Part shown: positions 4,933-33,828 of the stretch, piece by piece
Layout of the letters: every line of letters begins with the position of its first letter
How positions within the stretch are numbered: the stretch's first letter is position 1
Notes under the pieces: model-generated
Seen by the model: the letters and a program-made list of their open reading frames with translations, nothing else
The model's database searches: none
What the model was told of the DNA's origin: nothing
Translations under genes and position numbers: made by a program
IMG/VR virus record: IMGVR_UViG_3300048582_000255
Location: 1 to 39,440 of that record
DNA: 39,440 bases
Direction: 5' to 3' (one strand)
DNA from: a virus

Positions 4933-4948
4933 GTTTTTTTATTTGTTG

Positions 4949-4996
4949 CAAATATATACATCTTTGCAACACTTTTGCAACACTTTTGCAACATAT
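4949..4996 (-). promoter_or_regulatory. Early promoter with three tandem repressor-operator repeats
   Basis: On the minus strand, TATATTTG (4956-4949) is a perfect Bacteroidota -7 box (TAnnTTTG), with TTG triplets upstream for -33. Overlapping it are three 11-bp direct repeats on the plus strand: TTGCAACACTT at 4964 and 4975 and TTGCAACATAT at 4986. Eleven base pairs is one helical turn, so bound proteins would sit on one face. The same repeat occurs at the replication promoter near 33786. The rest of 4997-5214 is AT-rich and holds no gene I can support. Confidence 0.75.
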
Positions 4997-6759: not shown

Positions 6760-7387
6760 TGTCTTCAGCTTCAGCTATTGAATCTATATCTTCAAAGTGT
6801 GCATCTTCTGCCATCTCTGCATATAATTCTGAGGCATCAACCACACCTTTCTTGAGCATTTTACCAAATCCTTTCTCCACTTCTTTTGGTACATTGATTT
6901 GATATATATGTGCTTGAAGTTTAGCAAAATCAAATTTCTCTACATCTTCATCTTTTAATCCTGATGCACTAATGATTCGCTTTTCTGCTTTGTCTTTCAC
7001 TGCCTGAATGATACCGAAATCCTTCACATTGATTTCACTTCCATCTTCAGGATTCAATTTTCGTTCACATTCTGCAATATCACGCATTGCTGATTCAATA
7101 ATTACCATACGCAAGAAATCTTTGGTATATTTCTGCATAGGAGCAAATATATCTTCAGCAGCTTTGAAATCTTTGTAAGCTAATGGCAAAGAGATTGGCG
7201 GATCAAATGTTGCGATGTACTTCTGTATGGCAACTGATCTTATTTTGTTTTCACATAACAAGGCAAATGCACGCTCATATCGCATACAAATTTCACGTTC
7301 CTTATCTGACAACTTACCTGATTCGTGGTAATACTTCTGTATTTTATCAAACAAATCATCTTCTGGAGTTCTTTTATTTTTTTTCAT
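6752..7387 (-). CDS. Terminase small subunit candidate
   Basis: A 211-aa charged, helical protein directly upstream of and overlapping terL, the usual place for the DNA-recognising small subunit. The N-terminal half contains SDKEREICMRYERAFALL and KIRSVAIQKYIATF, which could form an HTH-like recognition region. The C-terminus is very acidic. No diagnostic motif confirms it, so the call rests mainly on position, size and charge pattern. Confidence 0.5.
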   Translation of the reverse strand: MKKNKRTPEDDLFDKIQKYYHESGKLSDKEREICMRYERAFALLCENKIRSVAIQKYIATFDPPISLPLAYKDFKAAEDIFAPMQKYTKDFLRMVIIESAMRDIAECERKLNPEDGSEINVKDFGIIQAVKDKAEKRIISASGLKDEDVEKFDFAKLQAHIYQINVPKEVEKGFGKMLKKGVVDASELYAEMAEDAHFEDIDSIAEAEDNE

Positions 7388-10854: not shown

Positions 10855-11673
10855 TCACTGATTTATTAAGGTAAATGCTTCTTCTATTACATCATCTAAG
10901 CGCTTGATTCCATCAATCAGATTGAGTTTTATTCCTTCATCTGCCATCACATCTGCACCGCCAAAAACAGATTCATCCACCTGTGGCCTACCTAATAGAA
11001 TATCTTGATGAAATTGTTTGTTGAATGGATCTAGCAACTTTTCTTTGATAGGCTCTGTATCTCCATCCAATGCGGCACGGTATGCACCGTTTTTTTCAGT
11101 GGATTTGGTTGCATATACAGATACCAATTGATATTCAGCGCGTGAATTTTCGTTTGGCTTGTGGAAGCCCCACATGGTACCGATGGAACCAACGCGATCG
11201 GTTGGAGCTGAAGCATAAATCTTTGTGGCTTGAGATGCGATGTAATAAGCAGCCGATGCGCATACACCAGAGAAATGCACCAATACTGGTTTCTCATTTC
11301 TCAATTGTCTCATTGCTTCTGCTACGTGTGGCATGTGCGTTGCTTCACCACCTCCACTATCGATATCCAAAACCACTGCACCTACAGTAGGATCACTCTT
11401 TAATTGATTGAGAATTGATTCAAAAGATTTCATTCCCATGTCACCGCAATAATCATATTTGAGAATCATTCCGTAGATTTCAATTACAACTACACGTTGT
11501 TCCTGAGAACCGCCTCCACTCTTGTAGCCATGAATGCGTTGCTCGGTTGTGTAAATGGATAAATCAACATTATTCCCATTCAGGAAAGAAGTGATTACAG
11601 GTTGTAGAGCTACAGCCTCCGTTTCGGAAACCATCCATACGCCTTTTAAGATATCGCTGTATAAATTTGCCAT
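10855..11673 (-). CDS. Prohead protease, S49 (SppA/ClpP-like) family
   Basis: A 272-aa serine protease. GAVVLDIDSGGGEATHM is the oxyanion-strand motif, and SGVCASAAYYIAS carries the nucleophile Ser in the usual ASAAYY context. The Lys in VYATKSTEKNGAY is the likely general base. S49 enzymes process capsid and scaffold proteins in many phages. I place the start at 11673 (MANLYSDIL) because an in-frame ATG at 11688 lies inside the promoter -7 region. It is the first gene of the head operon, 4 nt downstream of a late promoter element. Confidence 0.85.
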   Translation of the reverse strand: MANLYSDILKGVWMVSETEAVALQPVITSFLNGNNVDLSIYTTEQRIHGYKSGGGSQEQRVVVIEIYGMILKYDYCGDMGMKSFESILNQLKSDPTVGAVVLDIDSGGGEATHMPHVAEAMRQLRNEKPVLVHFSGVCASAAYYIASQATKIYASAPTDRVGSIGTMWGFHKPNENSRAEYQLVSVYATKSTEKNGAYRAALDGDTEPIKEKLLDPFNKQFHQDILLGRPQVDESVFGGADVMADEGIKLNLIDGIKRLDDVIEEAFTLINQ

Positions 11674-11808: not shown

Positions 11809-12318
11809 CTAAGCAACGAATAAACTCAATTGCTCATATTCTTTCATTGTTGGGATCTTTTTAGGCATCTCCAAATTATCTTTTGATTTTCTATACCGGT
11901 AATACGATTTAACCAGCGTTTCAAATTTTACCATTTCTTCATCTATCTCATAAAACTTCATGAAACGAAGAATTCCATTATAGTAATCTCCTTTTACTTC
12001 ATATTGCATCGTAACGAAATCAAATAAGGTTTGGTGAAATAGATCATCTAGTCTACCATCTATTTGCCAGATGGTTTCATCATCTATTAAGAAGCGTCCA
12101 TGCTTTGCAGCTGTGGAACTCATGGAAATGATAAGTGAATCATTTAGATGTTTTTCTTCTTTGAGTGATACACTCTTGAAGTTTTCTTTGAAACTCTCAA
12201 AAATGATTGCTGAAATATGACACTTTCCAATCGATAATTTGAAAGGATCTACATCATGATTTTTGGCAATAAACTGCTTCAAATAACTTCTAATCGGAAT
12301 TGAACATGTTATTTCCAT
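11809..12318 (-). CDS. Hypothetical protein ending in a QLSLF clamp-binding motif
   Basis: A 169-aa protein, mostly helical and charged. The last residues are EQLSLFVA, the consensus eubacterial beta-sliding-clamp-binding pentapeptide (QL[SD]LF) at a C-terminus, where such motifs normally act. The gene sits beside the GTGCTA hexamer cluster and is driven by a promoter overlapping one repressor operator (12440-12450). This suggests a replication role or an interaction with the host replisome, perhaps as an origin-associated factor. No DNA-binding motif is clear. Confidence 0.65.
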   Translation of the reverse strand: MEITCSIPIRSYLKQFIAKNHDVDPFKLSIGKCHISAIIFESFKENFKSVSLKEEKHLNDSLIISMSSTAAKHGRFLIDDETIWQIDGRLDDLFHQTLFDFVTMQYEVKGDYYNGILRFMKFYEIDEEMVKFETLVKSYYRYRKSKDNLEMPKKIPTMKEYEQLSLFVA

Positions 12319-12439: not shown

Positions 12440-12478
12440 AAGTGTTGCAAAAATACAAAAAACAAAAATCACGTGCAA
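12440..12478 (-). promoter_or_regulatory. Promoter with one repressor operator
   Basis: Minus strand: TTG (12478-12476), a 20-nt spacer and TATTTTTG (12455-12448), matching the Bacteroidota consensus. AAGTGTTGCAA at 12440-12450 is an exact reverse copy of the 11-bp operator and covers the -7 box, so the QLSLF gene should belong to the repressor regulon. Confidence 0.6.
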
Positions 12479-12493
12479 CAAAATGCAATTTTT

Positions 12494-12740
12494 GTGCTAC
12501 CCGTGCTACCGTGCTACCAAAAAGGGTTAAGTTTCTGATAATGAGAGGTAGCACGGTTAGCACGGTGTGCTAATTTGTGCTGTTTTGGTTAGCACAAATT
12601 AGCACGACCAACTAAAGATTTTTTCGACCGTGCTAATTTGTGCTAACTTGTGCTAACCTGTGCTAACTTCATAAAGTATTGATTTATATATATATAAGTA
12701 CTTTTTTATACTAAAAGTTAGCACGGTAGCACGGTAGCAC
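12494..12740. repeat. Cluster of 15 GTGCTA/TAGCAC hexamers, iteron-like
   Basis: GTGCTA starts at 12494, 12503, 12511, 12567, 12630, 12640, 12650 and 12660. TAGCAC starts at 12549, 12558, 12590, 12600, 12719, 12727 and 12735. Spacing within groups is 8-10 bp, with four copies exactly 10 bp apart. An AT-only stretch (12680-12715, with TATATATATAT) lies between the last two groups. Iterons plus an AT-rich segment are the layout of replication origins and of dense operator arrays. No gene fits here. Confidence 0.7.
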
Positions 12741-13095
12741 ACCTTTTTATAAATTTTTGAAAGTTGAAAAAAAAAATCTCAAAAATGCCGATTTTTAAAA
12801 ATTTAACAAGAGTGTTAAAAATTTAGGAATCCAAGAATGATTTTATAAAAAAACTGAAATTTTGGAAAAGGTTTTTGAATGGTTGTTGCAGGAATGTTGC
12901 GTTGATTTTTCTTTTGTTGAATTTGTGCAACAAAATGCAACAAATTGCAACGTAATTTTTTTGGCAGTTTCAGTTATTAGATTTAACATTGCAACGACAA
13001 ACAAAATCACAGGGTACAAATACATCCTGATTTATTATATTAACAACATGCCAGTGCTAAAGCGTTTTGGAGACGTATCTTTCTTCCCTGTGAAG
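12741..13095. other. AT-rich non-coding stretch with scattered TTGCAAC half-sites
   Basis: This stretch is very AT-rich with long A and T runs. Between about 12895 and 12955 it has several GTTGC/GCAAC motifs related to the repressor operator (for example TGCAAC repeated at 9-10 bp steps), and one more near 12990. I see no convincing gene; an open frame on the plus strand here is made largely of these repeats. It may be part of an origin or a weak operator array. Confidence 0.4.
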
Positions 13096-27047: not shown

Positions 27048-27608
27048 TTAATCATTTAAAGGTTCAACAACTTCTTCAGCTCTGAATAATTCCAATTGAG
27101 AAACATTCATTTTGGAACGAGCGTAACTTGCTTGGCGTTCACGTAGCTTCAGCATTTCCAATTCTAAAAATCTAGGATCTTGGTTTAATTCTTCCTGAAG
27201 CTTTTCAATTTGGTTTTTTCGCTTGGCTGATTCTTTCAAGCTATCTTCTAATTTCTGATAATGGTCAAAAAGAAGTTTGTCAATTGTGGTGTAAACCCAA
27301 AGTTCAAATTCAGGACTTAACCACGCGGCAAATTTTAAAGCCAAAATTCGGTGCATAAAAGTACTAACACCATTCTTTGTTTGAATAATTTCTTCCCTCG
27401 ATAAAGTTGCCGAGCTTCCACCTACAGGTGTAAGCTCTAATAATTTTATGAACTCTTTTGTTGGCTCAATTTTAAGAAAAACGTCAATTCTTTTATTAAA
27501 AATTTTTGCCATTTGAGTAGCGTTCACCATTACTCCATTTTTACCTTTCAAGGTAAATTCAATTTCTGTATCTCTGTACAGAAAATTGGTTGTTTGTTTT
27601 ACTTCCAT
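27048..27608 (-). CDS. KilA-N domain protein with C-terminal QLELF motif
   Basis: A 186-aa protein. The KilA-N DNA-binding domain covers about residues 10-105 (GVMVNATQMAKIFNK, GVSTFMHRILALKFAAWLSPEFELWV). A coiled coil follows, with IEKLQEELNQDPRFLELEML, and then SQLELFRAEEV near the end. The QLELF fits the beta-clamp-binding consensus. Its C-terminal module resembles that of the antirepressor at 28208-28738. KilA-N proteins of phages act as regulators or antirepressors. It starts 3 nt after the stop of the 74-aa gene. Confidence 0.8.
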   Translation of the reverse strand: MEVKQTTNFLYRDTEIEFTLKGKNGVMVNATQMAKIFNKRIDVFLKIEPTKEFIKLLELTPVGGSSATLSREEIIQTKNGVSTFMHRILALKFAAWLSPEFELWVYTTIDKLLFDHYQKLEDSLKESAKRKNQIEKLQEELNQDPRFLELEMLKLRERQASYARSKMNVSQLELFRAEEVVEPLND

Positions 27609-28207: not shown

Positions 28208-28738
28208 TTAATTAAACAATGCCAATTGTGAAGCTGTAACTTCTTTATCTAATGAGTTTAATTGCTTTTTTGTTTGATTGACGTTTGATTTTAATTCTTG
28301 CAAACGTTTGTATTCAGGATTATCATTCAAAGCCGCTTGAAGTTTTTCAATTTCTACTTCTGTTTTTGTTTTTTCTAAAAGTATCTTTTCCCTTCTAGTA
28401 ACAGAACCATGAAAATGATTGTATATAATTCTGTAGCATTCCCATTTGTACTGTTGTAATTCTTGATTTTTAGAATTTATGCTAAAAATCCAACCGTAAA
28501 TAAAAAATTCTGGCAAGCATGTCATTTTTTGAAGTCGGTTTGAGCTATCGTGCATTGTGTGGGTACACAATACACCGCTTAGAAAAATGTCATTTTTTAA
28601 GTTCTTATATTGTTGAATATAATCTATTCCCAATGCTTCGCAAATTGGTTTCACTGCAATCCAGTTTGTACCTTCTACATCTAGGAAAAATATTGTTTTC
28701 CCATTAAATTCTAAAAATTTTCTAATCTCGTTTTTCAT
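28208..28738 (-). CDS. Phage antirepressor-like protein with C-terminal QLALF motif
   Basis: A 176-aa protein. The N-terminal half fits the P22-antirepressor/BRO-N type: IFFLDVEGTNWIAVKPICEALGIDYIQQYKNLKND, then CLPEFFIYGWIFSINSKN and LQQYKWECYRIIYNHFHGS. A coiled coil follows with IEKLQAALNDNPEYKRLQEL, and the end is TASQLALFN. The QLALF end resembles a sliding-clamp-binding motif and matches the KilA-N protein design. Antirepressors inactivate phage repressors, so it may control the HTH repressor at 33888-34253. It is the last gene of the replication operon. Confidence 0.8.
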   Translation of the reverse strand: MKNEIRKFLEFNGKTIFFLDVEGTNWIAVKPICEALGIDYIQQYKNLKNDIFLSGVLCTHTMHDSSNRLQKMTCLPEFFIYGWIFSINSKNQELQQYKWECYRIIYNHFHGSVTRREKILLEKTKTEVEIEKLQAALNDNPEYKRLQELKSNVNQTKKQLNSLDKEVTASQLALFN

Positions 28739-29717: not shown

Positions 29718-32700
29718 TTAAATTGGGAATTCGTCTTCCTGTTTATACTTATCGAAAAGATTAGGGTCTTTTTGCGGTTGTTTGTGCAATGTATCGTTGG
29801 TCATGGTTGCAGCTATTTCCTCACGTGTTGGTGCATCTTCCAAAATTTCAACGCCTTCCAATTGCATATTCAAGGCATCATATCTAAATGCGTATGCACT
29901 TGATTTGTTTCCCTCAAAACTCACAACTGCTACAGGTCCAAGCCATGCTTTATCTGCTTTCATGTAACTCATTATTGAGCTCTCAGGAATTCCAATTTCT
30001 CCTGTTTGCTTTCTAATTGTTTCCATGTACAGTGGATGGATTTTGTTGAATTTGAAATACACAACTCTCGTTGGTTCTGGAAATTGAACCACGCTTTTTT
30101 CCTTGCTCGAAATACGGATTGATACTTTTGATTCGGTGACAACCTTGTAATCCACATTGTTTCTGATTTGGTGATTTGAAGCCATGAATTCGATAATTTT
30201 CCAGTACTTGGAAAGCGTGTTGCTCTCTTGAATTTGGCTTGATTGAAGAATAATGTTTCTCATACTGATCTTCTCCAAGCTCTCATACGATACATGCAGA
30301 TTCAATTCTGTAGAAACAAGCTTGTACACAGCCAGTACAATAGAATAAAGTTCAATCACACGCCCGTTTCTCACTCTTCCTTCCAATTGTCGGTTGATGT
30401 GGCTTTCAATCTCATACCTGGTACTTACAAACCGCTCACATATCAAATCCCGAAAGCGAATAATTTCAACGATCAATTGAGACAATCCTTTGCCTTGAAT
30501 CTCCATCAGCTGTTCGTACAGTTTCTTTTCTTCTTCGCTGTACTCATCCGATGTTTTGGTGAACTGAAGCAAGATTGAGCGTGTGTACAATGAGTTATCA
30601 TCTCGCGTGGGAAGATATTGCCCGGATAACATTGCAGATGAATTGATACGTGTTGTTTTGGTTCTGTTTGAATTCTCTTTGATACCTGCTTCGTGGCCTG
30701 TTCCATCATAGATACCTTTCAGTGATTGGAATTTCTTTTCATCCAGCGCATTCGTGTACTCATCCAAGTGAATGATCGCATTCTTTACCGCTGCCAATTT
30801 ACGCTGAAAACCTACGACTGTACCGTTGTTCAAGTTGAAAGGCGTTGTATCTGCAAAAAATACAGATGAAATGGAGCGCGCACACGTTGTTTTTCCTGTT
30901 CCTGGTCTACCAAACATGAACAGCATCGGAAAAGATTTGAATTCTTGGTAGATGAAATCACGAAATACTGCCGAAATCATAAAAGCAACTGCAATTGTTC
31001 CGTTGTCTCCATAGATGGTATCCATCCATCTGCTCCAATCTTTCATGCTTAATTTCGATGCCCGGAACACGTTTTTTCTATCTGAAGCGTAGTTGTCGTT
31101 TTCTTCAGGTAAATCTTCATAGATGGAAGAAAAAGCAGGAAGAAAGTAATGTTTATCCGCATAAGCAACAGAGCCGTATTTGTCTACTTTCTTAAAAGTT
31201 CCATCGATAATCCCATCAGCAAACGCCCAAAAGCCATCTCGATGCCAACCCAGTGAAGTAATTTCTTCGTGCATCACAAATTTGGGATACAGTTTGGCTC
31301 TGATTTTCTGTAAATGTTTTTTGATTCCATCAAATCGAAAATCTCCAAGAATAGAAAGTTCGTTTTCAAATACGCTTGGATTGTTGAAGGTATCTTTTGG
31401 CAAAATTCTCACACGTGTTTTTTTTCCGTTTGTAATTTCACACACACGGCCACCTTCAGAAGCAGAACCAAGTTGGAATATTGGCCGAATCAGAAAATTT
31501 GTAATTCTTTCGAAGTTAGAACCGCTCGATCCAGGGAAGTAATATCCAATTTTGCCAACTGTAGGATCTTCGTAAAACATGAAATCCTTAAACTCCAGCT
31601 TGATATCTTCAGAAATGTATGAAGGGATCTTATATCCTTCGTTTTCTTCTTCTTCCTCTTTTTGTTTGCTTTGGATGGTTGCCGAAACTTCACTTTCTAC
31701 GTTCTTTTTTTCAATTCCGTAGTTTTTAGCAATCGTTTTGATGTACTCATTTCTGATTTTCTGATTTGGAATCAAAGCAATGAGTTTCGCTAGCTCTGTT
31801 TCTGCTTTCGATTTTTGAGAAACTGTTTTGGCATCCTTGAAAAACAATTCAGCCATATACTCCACACCATCCACAGCCTGTTCATCAATCAATTGCTTCA
31901 GCTCATCTTGTTCGAAATTGGCTTCTCGCACAAATGAATCTGCATCTACTTTGGAATCTTCATTTTCTTTCTCAGGAATAAATACCAGCACTTCCAAATC
32001 ATTTTCAAGGCAAACACGAATATCTGTGTTTAATGCTTTGATTCCTGCTTTGTCATTGTCAGCGAAAATTACAACTTGATGCGCAAATTTTTTCAGGATT
32101 TTTGCTTGCAAAGGTGTAAAGGCTGTTCCAAGCGGTGCAACTGTATTTGGCAATCCTGCAAAAGCAAGCCCTAGCACATCAAAATTACCTTCAACCTTAT
32201 ACACGCATTCAGCTTTTCGAATGTGTTCTTTGGCCACAGAAATTCCAAGCAATGAATCTGATTTCGAATAAGCTTCGTTTTCACCTGTGTTTAGGTATTT
32301 TGGAATCTTTTTACCTTCAATTTCAGGAAGAATATTCCTACCAGAGAAACCAATCAACACGCCTGCAAAGGTGAAAATTGGAAACATGATTCTTCCTCTG
32401 AAGAAAGAATAAATTTTCGTTTTCTCTTGATTTTCTTTTGCAAGTCCACTGGTGAGAAGTTGTTGTTTTGAGAAACCTTTTTGCAACATATACGAAACAA
32501 ATTCATCGAATGAATCAGGAGCATAGCCAACACGGTATTGTTCCAATATTTGTTCCGGGTATCGCAATAATTCAGGAGCTACATCCTTTCGTTTTGATTC
32601 AAAAAACTTCAACGCTTCTTCATTCACTTCAGAAATATCACGAATGAGCTCCTGTTTGATGATGTACTTCTTGCTTCGCTCTGAATCATCATACTCCACA

Positions 32701-32978
32701 ATCACATTGCACATTTCAGCAATTGTTTTGAGTGCTTCAGGATAGGTTAATCCTTTGAGCTCCATCACAAACGTAACAGGATTATTCGAGCCTTTCCCAG
32801 TTGAGAAGCACTTCCATACTCCTTTGGATGGAGATACAGAAAAAGAGGGTGATTTTTCCTCTGTAAAAGGAGAAAGCCCCATGTAATTAGCACCAGCCTT
32901 TTTGAGATCAACGAATTTCGATATCACTTCAAAAAGATCTAGGTCCTTGATTTGGTCAATCGTTCGTTGTGATATCAT
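29718..32978 (-). CDS. DnaG-type primase fused to an AAA+/SF3-like helicase
   Basis: A 1086-aa replication enzyme. Residues about 5-95 match the DnaG zinc domain (IDQIKDLDLFEVISKFVDL, SPFTEEKSPSFSVSPSKG), but the usual CPFH and CxxC ligands are mostly replaced (SPFT, KCFSTG). The catalytic RNAP/Toprim region follows, with KVEGNFDV near 260 and IFADNDKAG near 304. The C-terminal ATPase has Walker A GRPGTGKTT near 688 and Walker B IIHLDEYT near 738. It should prime and unwind phage DNA. Its 3' neighbour is the DnaA-like initiator. Confidence 0.85.
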   Translation of the reverse strand: MISQRTIDQIKDLDLFEVISKFVDLKKAGANYMGLSPFTEEKSPSFSVSPSKGVWKCFSTGKGSNNPVTFVMELKGLTYPEALKTIAEMCNVIVEYDDSERSKKYIIKQELIRDISEVNEEALKFFESKRKDVAPELLRYPEQILEQYRVGYAPDSFDEFVSYMLQKGFSKQQLLTSGLAKENQEKTKIYSFFRGRIMFPIFTFAGVLIGFSGRNILPEIEGKKIPKYLNTGENEAYSKSDSLLGISVAKEHIRKAECVYKVEGNFDVLGLAFAGLPNTVAPLGTAFTPLQAKILKKFAHQVVIFADNDKAGIKALNTDIRVCLENDLEVLVFIPEKENEDSKVDADSFVREANFEQDELKQLIDEQAVDGVEYMAELFFKDAKTVSQKSKAETELAKLIALIPNQKIRNEYIKTIAKNYGIEKKNVESEVSATIQSKQKEEEEENEGYKIPSYISEDIKLEFKDFMFYEDPTVGKIGYYFPGSSGSNFERITNFLIRPIFQLGSASEGGRVCEITNGKKTRVRILPKDTFNNPSVFENELSILGDFRFDGIKKHLQKIRAKLYPKFVMHEEITSLGWHRDGFWAFADGIIDGTFKKVDKYGSVAYADKHYFLPAFSSIYEDLPEENDNYASDRKNVFRASKLSMKDWSRWMDTIYGDNGTIAVAFMISAVFRDFIYQEFKSFPMLFMFGRPGTGKTTCARSISSVFFADTTPFNLNNGTVVGFQRKLAAVKNAIIHLDEYTNALDEKKFQSLKGIYDGTGHEAGIKENSNRTKTTRINSSAMLSGQYLPTRDDNSLYTRSILLQFTKTSDEYSEEEKKLYEQLMEIQGKGLSQLIVEIIRFRDLICERFVSTRYEIESHINRQLEGRVRNGRVIELYSIVLAVYKLVSTELNLHVSYESLEKISMRNIILQSSQIQESNTLSKYWKIIEFMASNHQIRNNVDYKVVTESKVSIRISSKEKSVVQFPEPTRVVYFKFNKIHPLYMETIRKQTGEIGIPESSIMSYMKADKAWLGPVAVVSFEGNKSSAYAFRYDALNMQLEGVEILEDAPTREEIAATMTNDTLHKQPQKDPNLFDKYKQEDEFPI

Positions 32979-33740: not shown

Positions 33741-33761
33741 TGTTTTAAGATTTATTTGTTG

Positions 33762-33828
33762 CAAATATACAAACTTGTTTCATTCTTGCAACACTTTTGC
33801 AACATTTTTGCAACATTTTGCAACAAAA
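33762..33828 (-). promoter_or_regulatory. Early replication promoter with four tandem operators
   Basis: Minus strand: TTG (33791-33789), 19-nt spacer, TATATTTG (33769-33762), 21 nt upstream of the first gene ATG. Four operator copies on the plus strand start at 33786 (TTGCAACACTT), 33797 and 33808 (TTGCAACATTT) and 33818 (TTGCAACAAAA), spaced 11, 11 and 10 bp. They lie between this promoter and the divergent repressor promoter, as in a lambda-like immunity switch. Confidence 0.8.

Follow-up and report, generated by a model that had tools for sequence, protein, structure and literature searches.

The locus described here raises the question of what a dense cluster of one short hexamer, repeated in both orientations between two sets of late genes, does for the phage that carries it. 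The window, i.e., the whole stretch of DNA that was analysed, is a virus record of 39,440 bases with the genes of a temperate tailed phage, including an integrase, an HTH repressor, a terminase, a head protease, tail genes and a DNA primase of 1086 aa. Its proteins resemble those of phages of Polaribacter, Cellulophaga, Flavobacterium and Porphyromonas, and thus the host is very probably a Bacteroidota species. The replication origins of phages from this phylum appear to be largely undescribed. A nucleotide search for relatives of the window among named phages returned no match. Its contig ends fall within the late gene region, and comparison of the gene order with that of a 40.7-kb contig bearing a 123-bp terminal repeat (G001, also L127) suggests that the window is a nearly complete, circularly permuted genome.

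An earlier note on this DNA had proposed the cluster as a candidate phage origin. A helix-stability minimum, a GC-skew minimum and an initiator-linked architecture in dozens of relatives all lend support to that proposal, and on these sequence features we hold with high confidence that the array is the replication origin of the phage.

The array contains exactly 15 GTGCTA/TAGCAC hexamers, eight on the plus strand and seven on the minus strand (Table 1), in agreement with the number, the two orientations and the extent of about 250 bp given previously. The spacing of 8–10 bp reported for many copies is also correct, measured start to start within blocks. Over the whole window the hexamer occurs 23 times, compared with 11.2 ± 3.0 times in dinucleotide shuffles, and none of 100 shuffles reached 23. 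The local cluster score was 28.1 (−log10 Poisson), while the best score for any hexamer in 100 shuffles of the window was 8.5. Two blocks of opposite orientation, the inner block of four copies and the outer right block, face one another across the AT-rich element. This element was originally described as AT-only, which applies to a short run within it. The array is intergenic, as had been claimed, with a mechanical 84-aa ORF as its sole overlap, and lies between the leftward operon of the 169-aa protein and head genes and the rightward tail genes. Such a position between divergent units was likewise pointed out in the earlier note; it holds for the window but is not a conserved trait, since the tail genes of G001 and of two further contigs (L327 and L329) are co-directional with the head genes and point at the array.

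Table 1: Features of the putative origin locus and of the proposed initiator gene in the window.
Feature	Position	Strand	Basis or remark
169-aa conserved phage protein, first head-operon gene, C-end QLSLF	11809..12318	-	homologues often adjoin array
Probable head-operon promoter: -7-like box TATTTTTG then CAAC, with TGCAAC sites	12443..12488	-	sequence only
Iteron array, 15 GTGCTA/TAGCAC, extended sites TTGTGCTAAC / CCGTGCTACC	12494..12740	.	sequence count
Left outer block of 3 iterons, spacing 8-9 bp	12494..12516	+	
Inner iterons, order - - + - - (+ is the degenerate GTGCTG at 12577, the one near-copy besides the 15 exact hexamers)	12549..12605	.	
Inner block of 4 iterons at an exact 10-bp spacing, left of AT segment	12630..12665	+	
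AT-rich unwinding element, 85% A+T	12666..12718	.	AT-only run 12682-12697
IHF/HU-type consensus site AATCAATACTTTA	12672..12684	-	consensus match
Right outer block of 3 iterons, spacing 8 bp	12719..12740	-	
GTTGCA/TGCAAC site cluster 5' of tail genes, possible tail-operon promoter region	12884..12996	+	sequence only
C-terminal winged-helix-like domain (about aa 920-1040), proposed iteron reader	29859..30221	-	predicted model
Primase-helicase, 1086 aa, proposed initiator	29718..32978	-	DnaG Zn ribbon, DNAG_N, Toprim, then AAA+ helicase

Iteron-type origins are recognised as a compact non-coding region with several short repeats of one motif and an adjacent AT-rich, easily melted element, and the window has both. 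Based on nearest-neighbour energies, the least stable 50-mer of the whole 39.4 kb lies at 12671–12720 (−46.8 kcal/mol). Cumulative GC skew had been suggested as a check on the origin reading. The detrended curve does reach its minimum at 12518, just 100 bp from the array centre, although skew in the window is confounded with gene orientation because the tail genes run right and the head genes run left. For six other genomes, the distance from the array to an extremum, in some cases a maximum, was 0.4–3.6 kb. The single IHF/HU-type site in the window array carries little weight, given 20 occurrences of the consensus over the whole window; across 49 non-redundant arrays, however, it was present in 22, as against 2.0 ± 1.4 after shuffling and 10% of windows of matched AT content taken elsewhere. 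No DnaA box (TTATNCACA, allowing one mismatch) was found inside the array, nor was there any enrichment of DnaA boxes in the window, where their total was below chance. DnaA boxes are not required where the initiator itself is a helicase.

The association of such arrays with an initiator gene extends across the family. Alignment of the primase yielded a survey set of 80 viral and 4 prophage loci that encode a fused DnaG primase-helicase of this type, with 76 host dnaG loci as the control, and all were scanned for hexamers without bias towards any motif, requiring both orientations. Two-orientation arrays were present at 52 of the 80 viral loci and all four prophage loci (56 of 84 altogether), compared with 5 of the 76 host loci and none of 252 shuffled loci. 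The other 28 surveyed loci had no array above the threshold; some of them are truncated or have their array elsewhere. Placement relative to the initiator gene was possible for 55 arrays; every one is on its 3' side, 38 of them within 700 bp (2.9 expected). Those 38 share with SaPI and SCCmec elements the placing of the putative origin directly downstream of the initiator gene, but the window does not: here and in its nearest relatives the array is far from that gene (17 kb in the window). The least stable 50-mer of the locus fell inside the array in 31 of 52 non-redundant arrays, a count that includes the individually examined genomes, and a top-five rank was obtained in 43 of the 52.

The likely reader of the iterons is the C-half of the primase-helicase, because its predicted fold is most like those of Cch and SaPIbov1 Rep, the initiator helicases of iteron origins. 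An AlphaFold model of aa 560–1086 (pLDDT 89.7) has an AAA+ helicase of this fold and a terminal helix-helix-hairpin, winged-helix-like domain. Its best PDB matches were Cch (5dgk, Z 24.1, 373 residues aligned) and SaPIbov1 Rep (8tch, Z 19.9, 364 aligned), followed by MCM helicases at Z 16.5 and below. With the whole C-half as query, the alignment to Cch and Rep extends to residues 488–489. The protein scored 14.4 bits against Pfam DUF927, under the curated cut-off of 22.6, and is therefore not filed as a member. The earlier note had named a 141-aa DnaA-like protein as candidate binder, but neither Pfam nor PHROGs returned a match for it, leaving the label unsupported, and the 1086-aa primase-helicase replaces it as the likely binder. 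We have fairly high confidence in this assignment.

We infer that the array is used as an origin, that the primase-helicase binds it and that the DNA is melted in the following manner. The C-terminal winged-helix-like domain would bind the GTGCTA iterons, and oligomers would assemble on the iteron blocks either side of 12666–12718 and melt the AT-rich element, possibly aided by IHF/HU bending. The primase-helicase would next serve as the helicase, and its DnaG domain would lay the first primers. The joint reading, that of a temperate Bacteroidota phage origin bound, melted and primed by the phage's own primase-helicase, appears to us very probable from the sequence evidence.

A different division of labour is conceivable in which the array is still the origin but the 169-aa protein, or another accessory protein, reads the iterons and loads the helicase. 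Members of the 169-aa family occur in many of these phages, with their gene often the first after the array, and it is this gene, not the primase, that the array has stayed beside in the window and its nearest relatives. The sequences of the Porphyromonas phage members also group with the motif type, although linkage could also produce such a pattern. Cellulophaga phage Ingeline and Flavobacterium phage laban6-1, however, have the gene kilobases off near the head protease, with the array nearer the primase. The model of the 169-aa protein (pLDDT 80) matches no PDB entry convincingly. We consider it unlikely that an accessory protein takes the place of the primase-helicase as reader.

Still less probable is that the array is a regulatory region shared by the divergent head and tail operons, with a regulator (e.g., KilA-N or Ant) acting on the 15 sites to switch late promoters. 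Its place between two divergent late units in the window, the promoter-like elements on both of its sides and its location at the boundary of replication and late genes in many relatives would all be in keeping with this. Against it, the divergent arrangement is not conserved, the array is directly behind the primase gene in many relatives, and a regulator array would predict neither the stability minimum of the locus nor the link to the primase gene. The flanking elements themselves share the motif TTGCAAC with two other intergenic, putative promoter regions that are without GTGCTA, and hence the array has probable late promoters on either side but is not the element they have in common. A late-promoter role of the array thus seems secondary at best, and promoters in the flanks would not conflict with an origin. 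A packaging (pac/cos) site, which the position at the start of the head operon in the window might suggest, is highly improbable: about 6 kb separate the array from the large terminase gene, across relatives it is the primase gene and not the terminase gene that precedes the array, and packaging predicts neither the stability minimum nor the link to the primase gene.

The TTGCAAC repeats deserve mention in their own right. They occur at 4944–4993 (−), 33757–33826 (−), 12443–12488 (−) and 12884–12996 (+), 11 bp apart in the first two, and adjoin TATATTTG or TATTTTTG boxes (the Bacteroidota −7 type, TAnnTTTG) just upstream of genes. Promoter-like TATTTTTGCAAC is found at 12444–12455 on the minus strand, and exact TANNTTTGCAAC has only three matches in the window, all at these places, which look like a small set of co-regulated promoters.

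Arrays syntenic with the TTGTGCTAAC array of the window read TGTTGGCA, TAGCGGAA and AAGCGGAA. The last two belong to L327 and L329; these contigs come from the phages whose primases are most similar to that of the window (46% and 44%). Their arrays are in the same position as the window's, and TTGATTTATATATA lies within the AT core of all three. In G001, repeats of TGCCAAC adjoin the local copy of the 169-aa gene. The arrays of the nearest relatives had escaped a pattern search for TTGT-type arrays, since they are built on a different motif, and came to light in the unbiased hexamer scan. Further motifs are TGTAATC in Leef_1, GTTGGAAC in Ingeline, GTTGAGA in laban6-1, and GTTGGAC and GTAGGAC in two Porphyromonas phages, whose arrays have a nearly identical left flank yet differ in the spelling of almost every core copy. 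The motif is phage-specific yet largely uniform inside each array, and the nearest relatives have a different motif at the equivalent position, as if a lock and key had often been re-cut. The tail-gene block of the window (about 12.8–22.4 kb) is inverted relative to G001, L327 and L329, and one breakpoint adjoins the origin. Some Porphyromonas phages have a second, partial copy of the iteron array near the other genome end (BK068104, 43375–43490; BK068097–BK068100, near 46.5–48.2 kb).

Within a clade of primases of about 1300 aa, one residue of the wing tracks the fourth base of the iteron. Valine (once threonine) accompanies TGTAG and N or Q accompanies TGTTGG, including in three of four sister-type pairs with 56–71% identity. 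K1025 of the window aligns to this V/N residue and goes with TGTG, and R goes with TGTC in three related phages. There are exceptions, namely L172 and L243 (N with A) and L186/L249 (F with G). The covariation is suggestive only, since it was spotted post hoc within one clade and the unbiased scans ranked the column high but not first (of 1003 columns it came 11th with all four bases, 19th when A was set against T and 103rd under a looser weighting). A partial Mantel test of motif against primase peaked mostly in the Toprim region and was not decisive. With slightly more doubt than belief, we put forward a broader proposal: phage origins of a widespread class that has apparently gone unreported, at which a DnaG-helicase fusion reads a short iteron that has been re-spelled repeatedly, nearly all copies together and within an otherwise conserved architecture, with a few wing residues setting the spelling (V for TGTAG and N or Q for TGTTGG in the one clade, K for TGTG in the window). 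No reports of such arrays were found in the open-access literature searched.

Several known systems resemble parts of this arrangement. Iteron plasmid origins of the R6K and pSC101 type have direct repeats, an AT-rich unwinding element and IHF-type sites, all of which they have in common with the window. Their Rep proteins are not helicases and need DnaA, whereas the window lacks DnaA-box enrichment. SaPI origins, in work of Ubeda from 2007, are reported to have iterons around an AT-rich region. The likeness to SaPI and SCCmec (Cch/Cch2) elements lies in an AAA+ initiator helicase of the fold predicted for the window's protein, and SaPI Rep uses its C-terminal domain to recognise short iterons immediately downstream of its own gene (PMC7581432). 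The window helicase, in contrast, is fused to a DnaG-type primase, while SaPI primases are of the AEP type (PMC7581432); its host phylum is Bacteroidota, the arrays have up to about 15 copies in both orientations, and the distance between origin and initiator gene is that given above. The parallel is a functional one, with DUF927 under the cut-off and the window origin not beside the gene. The window system is probably a variant, and a new one, among the known helicase-initiator iteron origins. Satellite phage P4 likewise unites a Toprim primase, a helicase and a C-terminal winged helix in one protein, alpha, with an iteron origin (PMC4234260). P4 has its own motif and the likeness to alpha is by description, no P4 alpha structure being among the matches listed for the C-half. 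ORF904 of plasmid pRN1 is also a primase, SF3 helicase and winged-helix protein with an origin just 3' of its gene (PMC4234260), but its primase domain is archaeo-eukaryotic, and the pRN1 origin is a stem-loop with no iterons.

The rule of a two-orientation array with a stability minimum, 3' of a DnaG-helicase gene, would permit origin prediction in dozens of phages. The phage-specific motifs offer a natural series for following how initiator and origin specificity change together, and they point to a basis for origin incompatibility, for plasmid vectors and for defence aimed at origins in Bacteroidota. If true, motif switching would render related phages replication-compatible or -incompatible.

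A scan of viral contigs for exact GTGCTA triples returned mostly one-orientation, triplet-spaced runs that are probably coding. Exceptions with both orientations were seen in G002 (L017), an unrelated phage contig of 46.9 kb whose array lies at 10925–11236, and in the alphaproteobacterial L057/L066. Alphaproteobacterial-type phages (L057 at 7084–7184, L335, L336, L338, L340 and L341) have CTGTAGCAC arrays in both orientations; these are just 3' of a DUF927 helicase gene yet fall within a small open frame, and the array is absent from one relative, L339.

Homologues of the 169-aa family were seen at many loci, often between the origin and the head protease. The family has no Pfam or PHROGs match, and a direct search with the protein in viral contigs and named phages returned no match. 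The protein had been described as a clamp-motif neighbour of the array. It does end in EQLSLFVA, but QLSLF is not a family feature, and homologues such as Leef_1 gp39 are without it. QL(S/E/A)LF, which has the shape of a sliding-clamp binding motif, lies at or near the C-end of three small window proteins: the 169-aa protein, KilA-N (27048–27608) and P22_AR_N/Ant (28208–28738). The end of Leef_1 gp31 (Ant) is similar, reading QLDLF.
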